Shown: positions 5,674-8,046 of the stretch, piece by piece
Layout: the number at the start of each line of letters is the position of its first letter
How positions within the stretch are numbered: the first letter of the stretch is position 1
Source: a bacterium
GTDB lineage: Bacteria; Patescibacteriota; Minisyncoccia; Phycocordibacterales; UBA2100
Direction: 5' to 3'
Length of the DNA stretch: 10,180 nt
Assembly (NCBI GenBank): GCA_030698935.1
Contig: JAUYLR010000098.1
Span: 1-10,180 of the forward strand
Notes under the pieces: generated by a model
Seen by the model: the letters and a program-made list of their open reading frames with translations, nothing else
What the model was told of the DNA's origin: nothing
Database searches by the model: none
Made by a program: the position numbers and the translations under genes

Positions 5674-5916
5674 CTATGCGGAACGCTTATATTCCGCGTG
5701 AAAAACCTCAACAACCCTGTCAATTTGCTTGATGAGCTTGGCCATCAGGTGTGGCGCAAGGAATATCTCAATGGTGAAATGGGAAATGTGTTTCTTCCTG
5801 TCAACCTCTTTCACGTGCAGTGACTCTATGTTTATTTTCTTACGCAGTAAAAGCCCCGCAATGCGGTAGAGGGTACCGGGCGCGTTTTCTGATTTAATGG
5901 TGAGTACGTAGCGCAT
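5674..5916 (-). CDS. ilvN: Acetolactate synthase small (regulatory) subunit, single ACT domain
   Basis: An 80-residue protein that is essentially one ACT domain: a first strand MRYVLTIKSEN, the NAPGTLYRIAGLL-type turn and helix (residues 11-23, here ENAPGTLYRIAGLL), KINIESLHV (32-40) and a closing strand ISHFTIEIF. ACT domains of IlvN/IlvH bind valine or a related amino acid and set the activity and feedback inhibition of the catalytic subunit. Many IlvH proteins are about 160 residues with a second domain; this one is short, like E. coli IlvN/IlvM. It lies downstream of ilvB on the same strand, separated by 193 bp of repeat sequence. The ATG has no Shine-Dalgarno. Another ACT regulator is possible by sequence alone, but position beside ilvB makes ilvN most likely. 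Confidence 0.87.
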   Translation of the reverse strand: MRYVLTIKSENAPGTLYRIAGLLLRKKINIESLHVKEVDRKKHISHFTIEIFLAPHLMAKLIKQIDRVVEVFHAEYKRSA

Positions 5917-6109: not shown

Positions 6110-7795
6110 TTACTTGAGCCGTATTTCATCCACGGCGGCGCCGCTCGGTATCATCGGGAAGACGTTTTCATCCCTCTCTACCATGATATCCAACAAGTAA
6201 CTCCCCTTTGCAGAGAGCATTCTATCAAGCGCCGGAGAGAGGTCCTTCCGCTCCTGCACAAGCTCGTTAGGAATTGAGTATCCGTCGGCAATCTTGTTGA
6301 AGTTCGGATTTTCCATGTGCACGAAGGAGTACCGCTCCTCAAAAAACATCTCCTGCCACTGCCGCACCATGCCGAGGTGGCGGTTGTTGAGAATGATTAT
6401 CTTCACGGAAAGCTTTTCCTGCATGATGGTCCCCAACTCCTGCAGTGTCATCTGGAACGAGCCGTCGCCGATGATGGCAATCACTTCCCTCTTCGGCCCC
6501 GCGATTTTCGCGCCGATGCTCGCGGGAAGCGCAAAACCCATCGTGCCCAAACCGCCCGACGTGATGTAGCTGTCGGGATTTTCAAAGCAATAGTAGCGGG
6601 CGGCCACCATCTGGTGCTGACCCACATCGGCCACGATGACGGCCTTCCCTTTTGTTTTCTCGCTCACGAGCCGCACCACCTCCGCCATGGTAATCTCGCC
6701 CGCTTTCGGATAGAGCTCGGCCTCTGTCACCACCTTCTTTTCTTCCGCATCAAATTTCCTGAACTCCGCAATCCACGCGCTGTGATTCTTGTGCTTTATG
6801 AGCGGTGTCAACTGCGCGAGGAACTCCTTCGCATCGGCGTGAATCGCCACTTCCGCCGGTATGACCTTGTCCAACTCCGCATAATCAATATCAACGTGAA
6901 TTATTTTTGCCTGCGGCGCGTACGCCGAGATTTTTCCCGTCACGCGGTCGTCAAAACGCATACCGATGGCGAGGATGACATCCGCTTTGTTGGTCAGTTT
7001 GTTGGGACCGTAATTGCCGTGCATGCCGAGCATCCCCATGTGGAGCGGGTGGCTCTTGGGCAAGGATGAAAGCCCGAGCAAAGTGCTCGCGGCGGGAAGC
7101 CCGCCCTTTTCCAGAAATTGCGCGAGTTCGTTCTCGGCCTTTGAGAGCGATATTCCGTGCCCGAACAACACGTAGGGCCGTTTTGCGTTGTTGAGCAAAG
7201 CCGCAGCCCGTTGCAATTTTTTTTGATAGTACGGGTCGTGCCGGCTTTTTAATTTCACGGTCTGCACGGAATCGTCATACTCGCACAATTCAAACTGCGC
7301 ATTTTTTGTTATGTCTATGAGCACGGGACCTTTCCTGCCCGCGTTTGCGATATGGAATGCTTTCGCAACGATGTGCGGGATTTCCGCCGCGTTCGTTATC
7401 TGATAGCACCACTTCGTTACGGGAGTAACGATGCCGATGATGGGCGCTTCCTGAAATGCATCCGTGCCCAAAGCCGCTTCTGTGACCTGCCCCGTTATGC
7501 ACACGATGGGGATTGAATCGCACATCGCATCGGCGATGCCTGTCACGAGGTTGGTGGCGCCGGGGCCCGACGTCACCATGCACACTCCCGGCTTTCCCGC
7601 CAAGCGCGAATATCCTTCCGCGGCGTGCGCCGCCCCCTGTTCGTGCCGCACGAGCACATGCCGGATGGAATCCTTGTAATCGTAGAGCGCGTCGTACACG
7701 GGCATTATCGCCCCGCCCGGATAGCCGAAAATAGTATCCACTCCCTCGCGCAGAAGGGACTTCATGAGTGCTTGGGCGCCTGATATTTTTTCCAT
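6110..7795 (-). CDS. ilvB: Acetolactate synthase large (catalytic) subunit
   Basis: A 561-residue thiamine-diphosphate enzyme of normal family length. It condenses two pyruvates (or pyruvate and 2-oxobutyrate) to acetolactate (or acetohydroxybutyrate), the first common step of valine, leucine and isoleucine synthesis. The N-terminal domain shows GYPGGAIMPVYDAL (24-37), RHEQGAAHAAEGYSR with the catalytic Glu52 and TSGPGATNLVTGIADA (75-90). A central FAD-type domain covers roughly 190-340. The C-terminal domain has the ThDP motif GDGSFQMTLQEL (443-454) through ILNN (468-471) and RQWQEMFF (478-485). No catalytic residue appears missing. The ATG at 7795 gives the expected N-terminus MEKISGAQAL. 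There is no Shine-Dalgarno. Upstream is an attenuator-like leader, and ilvN follows. Catabolic (FAD-free) acetolactate synthase is less likely given the ACT partner and leader. Confidence 0.95.
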   Translation of the reverse strand: MEKISGAQALMKSLLREGVDTIFGYPGGAIMPVYDALYDYKDSIRHVLVRHEQGAAHAAEGYSRLAGKPGVCMVTSGPGATNLVTGIADAMCDSIPIVCITGQVTEAALGTDAFQEAPIIGIVTPVTKWCYQITNAAEIPHIVAKAFHIANAGRKGPVLIDITKNAQFELCEYDDSVQTVKLKSRHDPYYQKKLQRAAALLNNAKRPYVLFGHGISLSKAENELAQFLEKGGLPAASTLLGLSSLPKSHPLHMGMLGMHGNYGPNKLTNKADVILAIGMRFDDRVTGKISAYAPQAKIIHVDIDYAELDKVIPAEVAIHADAKEFLAQLTPLIKHKNHSAWIAEFRKFDAEEKKVVTEAELYPKAGEITMAEVVRLVSEKTKGKAVIVADVGQHQMVAARYYCFENPDSYITSGGLGTMGFALPASIGAKIAGPKREVIAIIGDGSFQMTLQELGTIMQEKLSVKIIILNNRHLGMVRQWQEMFFEERYSFVHMENPNFNKIADGYSIPNELVQERKDLSPALDRMLSAKGSYLLDIMVERDENVFPMIPSGAAVDEIRLK

Positions 7796-7809
7796 AAAGT
7801 GTTTGTGAC

Positions 7810-7818
7810 ATTGTAACA
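7810..7818 (-). promoter_or_regulatory. Possible second, internal promoter of ilvB (extended -10)
   Basis: The minus strand reads TGT-TACAAT here, an extended -10 whose TG sits in the 3' end of the terminator stem. It ends 14 bases before the ilvB ATG, so it would give a leader of about 7-8 nt. There is no -35. It could provide basal expression that bypasses the attenuator, or be a chance match. Confidence 0.35.
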
Positions 7819-7846
7819 GAAAACCCGCTTTGGGCGGGTTTTCTGT
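7816..7846 (-). terminator. Terminator (attenuator) hairpin in the ilvB leader
   Basis: There are two 13-nt perfect arms (7816-7828 and 7834-7846) with a 5-base loop. On the minus strand the order is acagaaaacccgc, loop ccaaa, gcgggttttctgt, then tacaatg. The GC core followed by TTTT, with an A-run on the 5' side, is the form of an intrinsic terminator and is nearly symmetrical. It lies 20 bases before the ilvB ATG and after the leader reading frame, so it would end transcription before ilvB unless an alternative fold forms. Confidence 0.8.
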
Positions 7847-7887
7847 GATACTTTGTTATTGCAGTATTACAGGCCCCGCTTGAGCGG
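7834..7887 (-). promoter_or_regulatory. Alternative antiterminator fold of the ilvB leader
   Basis: In minus-strand RNA, GCGGG-GC-CUGU-A-AUACU (7863-7879) can pair with AGUAU-C-ACAG-AAAA-CCCGC (7834-7852). This gives about 14 bp in three blocks (5+4+5) around a 10-nt loop. The right half is the terminator's 5' arm, so the folds exclude each other. A small upstream stem, CCGC-UCAA-GCGG (7876-7887), would in turn block the antiterminator. This reproduces segments 1, 2, 3 and 4 of classical amino acid attenuators. Confidence 0.65.
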
Positions 7888-7929
7888 TGTAACGACGAGG
7901 CCGACGACAGATGTCAATTTCAGTGTCAT
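7867..7929 (-). CDS. Leader peptide of the ilvB-ilvN operon (20 codons)
   Basis: The frame encodes MTLKLTSVVGLVVTPLKRGL then TAA. Leu (5), Val (4) and Thr (3) make up 12 of 20 residues, with two Val-Val pairs at 8-9 and 12-13; there is no Ile. It begins 6 bases after an extended -10 downstream of TTGACA, so its AUG is expected at or next to the transcription start, meaning leaderless translation. Codons 15-20 and the stop form the segments that can fold either as a small stem or with the terminator's 5' arm. Stalling at Val12-Val13 would cover segment 1 and free the antiterminator; reaching the stop would cover segment 2 and let the terminator form. The expected role is cis-acting control of ilvBN by charged tRNA-Val/Leu. 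It is inferred from the sequence; the peptide itself need not have a function. Confidence 0.75.
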   Translation of the reverse strand: MTLKLTSVVGLVVTPLKRGL

Positions 7930-7935
7930 AGTGAA

Positions 7936-7963
7936 ATGGTAGCAGAATCCGGTTTCTTGTCAA
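7936..7963 (-). promoter_or_regulatory. Promoter of the ilvB-ilvN leader transcript
   Basis: On the minus strand, a perfect TTGACA (7958-7963) is followed after 16 bp by TACCAT (7936-7941), preceded by TGC as an extended -10. The start of transcription is expected within a base or two of the leader-peptide ATG (7927-7929). The resulting leader up to ilvB is about 134 nt. Confidence 0.75.
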
Positions 7964-7976
7964 CTGGGGGCGCTCC

Positions 7977-8046
7977 AAGCCCCGCCCATTTTAAACGGAA
8001 GATGAACCCGCACCGTTTAAAATAGGCGGGGCTTCTCGCTGAGAAG
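7977..8046 (-). terminator. 22-bp hairpin plus small hairpin after the helicase gene
   Basis: Arms of 22 nt (7977-7998 and 8013-8034) pair with a single mismatch that becomes a G-U pair in minus-strand RNA; the loop is 14 nt. Directly before it, next to the helicase stop, is a perfect 6-bp hairpin cttctc-gct-gagaag (8032-8046). The two overlap by three bases and cannot both form fully. There is no T tract, so either a non-canonical terminator/processing stop or a mobile palindrome is possible. It insulates the helicase gene from the ilv leader promoter. Confidence 0.5.

Follow-up and report, generated by a model that had tools for sequence, protein, structure and literature searches.

The ilv, leu and thr attenuators of E. 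coli operate by a logic of alternative 1:2, 2:3 and 3:4 pairings that is tied to the geometry of ribosome stalling. CPR/Patescibacteria, for their part, are believed to rely on other organisms for their amino acids. No description of attenuation or of regulatory leader peptides in CPR/Patescibacteria was found in the open-access literature, where the "leader peptide" of Patescibacteria concerns bacteriocin precursors; the original prediction likewise knew of none, and such absence is not proof.

The closest described parallel is the ilvBNC attenuator of Corynebacterium glutamicum, whose Val/Ile/Leu-rich leader (MTIIRLVVVTARRLP) precedes the same gene together with competing hairpins, and whose mRNA starts a single nucleotide away from the initiation codon of the leader (from the part of PMC11857589 drawn on here). 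The distance from transcription start to ilvB is 292 nt in that species, while ~134 nt separate the leader ATG from ilvB in the window (the whole stretch of 10,180 nt analyzed here). Moreover C. glutamicum belongs to another phylum and its attenuator is backed by experiments, whereas the window is known from its sequence. Predicted ilvB leaders in Actinobacteria also consist of short frames with Ile/Val/Leu runs plus terminators before ilvB, yet their codon runs overlap the terminator hairpins and their mode is called unclear, whereas the frame in the window ends before the terminator (PMC1262725, in part). In the ilvB leader of Streptomyces coelicolor, changes of candidate codons were without effect, which counts against the attenuation reading of the window (same portion of PMC1262725). 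His attenuators of Firmicutes resemble a further group of loci described below, with short His-run leaders, an antiterminator and a terminator before his genes; they occur in groups lacking HisR, whereas at many CPR loci the run of His codons forms the C-terminal end of a YerC/TrpR-family gene itself (PMC9413887, the portion drawn on here, which does not mention Patescibacteria). In Rfam, the leader families stayed under their gathering cut-offs in the window (Leu_leader RF00512, 15.3 vs 50 bits; Thr_leader RF00506, 19.5 vs 55 bits; Trp, 17.5 vs 41 bits).

The window, from a genome assembly of 679 kb (69% complete), carries on its minus strand a compact array upstream of ilvB. A promoter-like site (7936..7963; TTGACA at 7963-7958, 16 nt, then TGC-TACCAT with the -10 hexamer at 7941-7936) lies where a promoter had been proposed, matching at 10 of 12 positions, and its -10 hexamer ends exactly 6 nt 5' of the leader ATG. 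The leader ORF (7867..7929; ATG at 7929, TAA at 7869-7867) encodes MTLKLTSVVGLVVTPLKRGL in 20 codons, of which nine are Leu or Val (five and four respectively) and three Thr, precisely the counts originally given. Its putative regulatory codons are Val8, Val9, (Leu11), Val12 and Val13, within a frame that is Val-rich in all five genomes of the genus with ilvB. The small CCGC/GCGG stem in the last codons is present (arms at 7887-7884 and 7879-7876): segment 1 (CCGC, 7884..7887) is predicted to partner the start of segment 2 when the ribosome is absent, and the predicted minimum fold at this position is a longer pairing, of GGCCUCGU with GCGGGGCC. Segment 2 (GCGGGGCCTGTAATACTG, 7862..7879), assigned by fold and stall scan, would form the 5' side of the antiterminator; segment 3 (AGTATCACAGAAAACCCGC, 7834..7852) would serve both as its 3' side and as the 5' arm of the terminator. 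The alternative 2:3 stem claimed at 14 bp consists of standard pairs throughout (14/14; GCGGG/CCCGC, CTGT/ACAG and ATACT/AGTAT), and the 13-bp terminator 3:4 just 5' of ilvB (ACAGAAAACCCGC-CCAAA-GCGGGTTTTCTGT, 7816..7846) pairs at 13 of 13 positions. Its U tract (UUUUCUGU), modest in the window, sits within the stem, and the program listing gives the same 31 bases on the plus strand only. Downstream lie ilvB (6110..7795), encoding a biosynthetic acetolactate synthase large subunit of 561 aa (TIGR00118, 682.5 bits; cut-off 538.35), and an ilvN-like ACT protein of 80 aa (5674..5916) that passes the cut-off of PF22629, stays below that of TIGR00119 (45.2 bits; cut-off 56.9) and matches just the first half of the usual small subunit.

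We consider it very probable that a ribosome-mediated transcription attenuator controls ilvB(N) by valine supply, the reading first put forward and the one that the sequence evidence favours. In the proposed mechanism, RNA polymerase would start at or beside the leader AUG, as the promoter spacing suggests, and a ribosome initiating at the presumably leaderless 5' end would trail it. Under ample Val-tRNA, modelling predicts that the ribosome reaches the stop codon and covers segment 2, so that the 3:4 terminator forms. Under scarce Val-tRNA, the modelled ribosome stalls at Val8-Val13 and segment 2 stays free; a 14-bp pairing with segment 3 would then form ahead of the synthesis of segment 4, so that transcription should continue into ilvB on valine shortage. 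Without translation, the predicted 1:2 pairing leaves segment 3 to the terminator.

Folding was consistent with this scheme: the leader RNA folded more stably than 200 of 200 shuffles, both over 7936-7800 (z -4.98) and over 7929-7818 (z -4.16). The antiterminator was then assessed on the RNA that stays free when the ribosome stalls on the final codon of a V/I/L run (ribosome edge 12 nt past the first A-site base), folded up to the terminator loop, against 500 dinucleotide shuffles of the part 5' of the terminator arm. In the window its dG was -17.4, as compared to -8.3 (s.d. 2.1) for the shuffles, of which just one in 500 equalled it; the terminator alone had a dG of -16.6. Across 11 ilvB leaders (the window, L006-L009, L022, L055, L086, L087, L091 and L097), a hairpin with a U-rich tail was present in every case, and the antiterminator was reached by at most two of 500 shuffles in ten; L091 did not pass (50/500). 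As a control, a similar test (edge 15 nt before the stop codon, 200 shuffles) was applied to 51 terminators behind ORFs of at least 120 codons in the fetched loci, these ORFs being unverified as genes. Among the 48 without a His pattern, two were reached by at most one shuffle, one of which was the L097 leader itself, leaving 1/47; among the three ORF ends with a His pattern there was none. The difference between leaders (10/11) and controls (1/47) gave p = 2e-9, with five of the 11 leaders being close relatives and the two thresholds slightly unlike.

The modelled stall geometry pointed the same way. With the A site at V8 to V12, all 14 pairs of the 2:3 stem were free under ribosome edges of 10, 12 and 15 nt, and at V13 the free pairs numbered 14, 14 and 13 respectively; at codon 19 only 3, 0 and 0 remained, and at codons 20-21 none. 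Thus both the competition of 2:3 with 3:4 and the proposed placement of the Val codons, where a stalled ribosome would cover segment 1 only, were borne out by folds and stall scan. A chance origin of the layout was ruled out by the antiterminator shuffles, the ORF-end control and the stall scan.

Among 294 related genomes, ilvB was found at E<=1e-100 in five, the window's included, and all five belong to one genus. Two of the other four loci are from Candidatus Kaiserbacteria, which agrees with the Patescibacteria-like lineage originally suspected. The layout was kept in all five ilvB-bearing genomes (window, L006-L009): in each leader the -10 hexamer ends 6 nt 5' of the ATG, which is itself 34 nt away from where TTGACA begins. 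The five peptides (MTLKLTSVVGLVVTPLKRGL, MNCKLSSVLVLVVNSAGAGAVIL, MSQKFTSFVVGVVVTARAGAAILN, MNRKFTSSVVVLVVAPLERGL and MSQKGVVVVVVNPARARLS) all retain Val runs, up to VVVVVV in L009, while their C-terminal ends vary (PLKRGL, PLERGL, SAGAGAVIL, TARAGAAILN and PARARLS). The ends differ because the spacing between Val run and CCGC hairpin shifts in frame; the RNA and the Val codons persist. Leader identity among the window, L006, L007 and L008 was 74-80%, as compared to 46-65% in the 130 nt upstream, and in pairs with L009 it was 62-65% vs 45-48%. By eye, all five also have an inverted repeat at the -35 box or no more than 14 nt from it (7977-8034 in the window); it might be an operator or the terminator of the preceding gene.

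An alignment of related leaders had been proposed as a check on the prediction. In it, the frame and the Val codons were retained in 5/5, but compensatory changes were scarce: with five sequences, column covariation revealed one compensatory pair in 3:4, a number reached by 95 of 500 shuffles, and zero in 2:3. The signal is weak because four of the sequences are nearly identical in the stems and L009 pairs in another register: by column, 5 of the window's 14 pairs survive in L009, where 2:3 re-registers with a dG of -23.2. Column covariation was thus uninformative as proof of the stems.

The notion, part of the original prediction, that CPR bacteria mostly lack amino acid synthesis does not suit the window's genome, which has matches to ilvC, hisG, trpE-type chorismate-binding genes and, partially, a leuA-type gene; ilvC (PF01450), hisG, chorismate-binding and HMGL-like (leuA-type) domains each occur in all five genomes, the HMGL-like match being partial in two of them, the window's among these. 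The regions upstream of ilvC in the five genomes showed no leader by eye.

The spacing between promoter and frame, which the original prediction had not noticed, recurred more widely. In nine of the 11 ilvB leaders, 6 nt separate the end of a -10-like hexamer from the ATG (7 nt in L086 and 13 nt in L022), five of these nine being from one genus and some of the hexamers weak (e.g., TACCCT in L097, 3/6). The mean TATAAT match over the 11 leaders peaked at offset 6 (3.64; next best 2.73). Because the -10 ends 6 nt upstream, transcription is predicted to begin on the A of the leader's ATG or on a neighbouring base, so that no room is left for a Shine-Dalgarno sequence before the leader. The ilvB leader mRNA is therefore probably leaderless, as judged from promoter spacing. 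The asserted likeness to E. coli thus holds for the 1:2, 2:3 and 3:4 logic but not for initiation: the window's leader, if the predicted start is right, lacks the room for a Shine-Dalgarno sequence, and its best parallel in this respect is the near-leaderless Corynebacterium ilvBNC leader. The element is predicted to be a classical valine attenuator on a probably leaderless transcript, in a CPR genome of Kaiserbacteria type.

Beyond the genus, leaders were found directly 5' of ilvB in just four of 15 further matches: L086 and L087 among four from a search of the order, and L091 and L097 among 11 from a search of the phylum. Contig scans of other genomes added L055 (Ca. Levyibacteriota) and L022. 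A loose scan of all 80 loci from these contig scans flagged eight, of which six (L006-L009, L022 and L055) show the layout; L050 and L078 were unconvincing on inspection, and the remaining loci are mostly from Bacteroidota. At L024 the leader (MKNQMSIIVLITPLNCGVMK) lies one gene farther up, in front of an aminotransferase-like gene that is followed by ilvB. By eye, no leader lay directly 5' of the ilvB match at L013, L088, L089, L090, L093, L094, L095, L096, L098 and L099; L088 and L089, with identities of 35-37%, are possibly not ilvB. The match at L100 has no upstream DNA, and L092 was ambiguous by eye.

An RNA model (R1) built from the five genus leaders found leaders outside its training set at L022 (two places), L024, L086 and L055. 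Genome-wide, 83 of 98 genomes matched R1 at E<=1; among the matches listed, E-values were below 1e-20 for the five training leaders and above 1e-7 for all else, and many matches span the terminator part only (model positions ~88-120). Seven further R1 loci were inspected (L216-L222), six of which were without a leader. The seventh, L222 (G043:C6:698-812, minus strand), comes from a genome of the same genus that is not one of the five with an ilvB match, and has a Val-run frame (MNRNSIVVVVLRSPRGGLRS) plus a strong terminator; its 2:3 pairing was reached by 26 of 500 shuffles.

Could the hairpin merely end a separate short transcript, with ilvB expressed from a promoter of its own and the leader of little consequence? 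The sequence behind the terminator invites the question: a possible extended -10 (TGTTACAAT, 7810..7818, minus strand, by eye) lies immediately 3' of the terminator, the form TGnTAnAAT occupies this place in the window, L006 and L007, and partial forms (TGCTAAACT and TGCTTAAAT) were seen by eye in L008 and L009. However, no -35 was seen for this candidate, its spacing to the ilvB ATG is inconstant, and the more distant leaders L086 and L091 have no second -10 box by eye. Furthermore, this reading leaves the Val frame and the antiterminator unexplained, and we regard it as unlikely. A second promoter and attenuation could coexist, and with the candidate promoter behind the terminator an unattenuated ilvB mRNA that bypasses the control is possible.

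Control of ilvB by a metabolite riboswitch or a T-box, with the short frame incidental, drew some interest from T-box-like elements that precede chorismate-binding genes in the same genus. Yet no Rfam family reached its cut-off in the window, the T-box was absent from the 25 weak leader matches listed, and the T-box covariance model (RF00230) had no match in window or leader; moreover the leader RNA of ~110 nt is mostly occupied by the frame and the competing stems, and the idea deserves hardly any credence. The retention of the leader frame in 5/5 would equally suit a functional small peptide, to which the RNA stems are secondary, but the peptide ends vary as the frame slips against a conserved RNA, which makes this reading exceedingly improbable as well. 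Valine attenuation of ilvB is thus the reading we prefer.

The pattern of leaders across amino-acid genes is more novel than the window itself. We think it likely, if less firmly than for the window, that amino-acid-making Patescibacteria often use ribosome-mediated attenuation, frequently leaderless, with Val, Ile, Leu, Cys or His leaders, and with an unusual form in which a full-length YerC/TrpR-family gene ends in a His-rich leader peptide, a single frame thus specifying a putative regulator together with the sensor for the attenuator behind it. If true, textbook attenuation would extend to CPR/Patescibacteria. This would imply that transcription and translation are coupled in these uncultured cells and that leaderless initiation works in them, and the leaders would give a readable hint at the amino acids sensed by a genome.

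Short frames with terminators were sought at 54 leuA-, hisG- and trpE-type loci in 20 CPR genomes with ilvB-type matches. His runs were found at five of 14 hisG loci (L127, L129, L130, L136 and L139), a Leu run at one of 21 leuA-type loci (L106 in G774, MQKQLLLLELLLLRD plus terminator), and a Trp run at none of the 19 trpE-type loci; at L137 an HH falls inside the YerC domain. In G816, the genome behind L022, an Ile leader (MNMKFAGIIGIIITR) plus terminator lies before ilvA (L223, upstream of 1441), with TATAAT and ATG 6 nt apart by eye; the downstream gene matches the family model of threonine ammonia-lyase IlvA. By eye, Cys-codon leaders with terminators precede cysteine-synthase-family genes at L226 in G816 (MKLQNTIICCTILS) and at L227 in G817, the genome behind L024 (MKKYFVKNSSCCTSYVCGRFIC; again TATAAT-6 nt-ATG), while L224 and L228, also among the five PALP-family loci inspected in these two genomes, showed no leader by eye. 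The L226 protein shares 96% identity with one from a Patescibacteria group bacterium. In the 2:3 test, the pairing was reached by 1 (L223), 4 (L226), 4 (L227), 0 (L106), 29 (L129), 0 (L136), 1 (L024) and 26 (L222) of 500 shuffles; L129 and L222 are not convincing because of their 29 and 26. In a minority of the loci scanned, putative cognate leaders are thus present, with Ile codons before ilvA, Cys codons before cysteine-synthase genes, Leu codons before leuA and His codons before hisG.

A T-box-like motif (GGTGGCACCGCG, once GGTGGTACCGCG) plus a terminator was also seen before chorismate-binding genes of the window's genus (L148, L150, L154, L155 and L159). All of these are below the Rfam cut-off; L148 scores 33.7 bits (E 1e-5) with the T-box model, whose cut-off is 93.

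At L127 (2207-2539), L130 and L139 (which belongs to the genus of the window), the YerC/YecD (TrpR-family) gene upstream of hisG ends in the His run. For example, the TIGR02531 match at L127 spans residues 7-91 of 111, with the His tail C-terminal to it. At L133, L134 and L135, from the same genus as the window, YerC has no such tail. An HH or HxH tail was present in 107 of the best 120 among 539 YerC homologues, and in 96 of the best 120 when the query was cut to residues 1-90. YerC matched at E<=1e-12 in 79 of 379 genomes of the phylum, and among the best 30 of these loci (L181-L210), 19 have the His tail. A terminator-like hairpin (dG <= -8) lay within 170 nt of the stop in 17 of the 19 with a tail vs 3 of the 11 without (p = 0.001); the tailed L187 and L188 had no terminator. 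In the 2:3 test, 16 of the 17 were reached by at most two of 300 shuffles, with L191 failing (143). The leader of a his-type attenuator is thus probably supplied by the His-rich C-terminal end of the YerC/TrpR-family gene; if this is right, an attenuator would be built from the 3' end of a regulator gene itself.

Downstream of the tailed YerC, hisG follows by position in L181, L182 and L190. Ten other downstream genes comprise four that match TIGR00725 and one that matches histidine racemases, all below cut-off, and five without any match at E<=1e-12. Many of 21 additional hisG loci are also preceded by frames with HH or HxH; those at L161, L162, L165 (the same locus as L190) and L178 resemble YerC tails by eye, and those at L168 and L175 free leaders.
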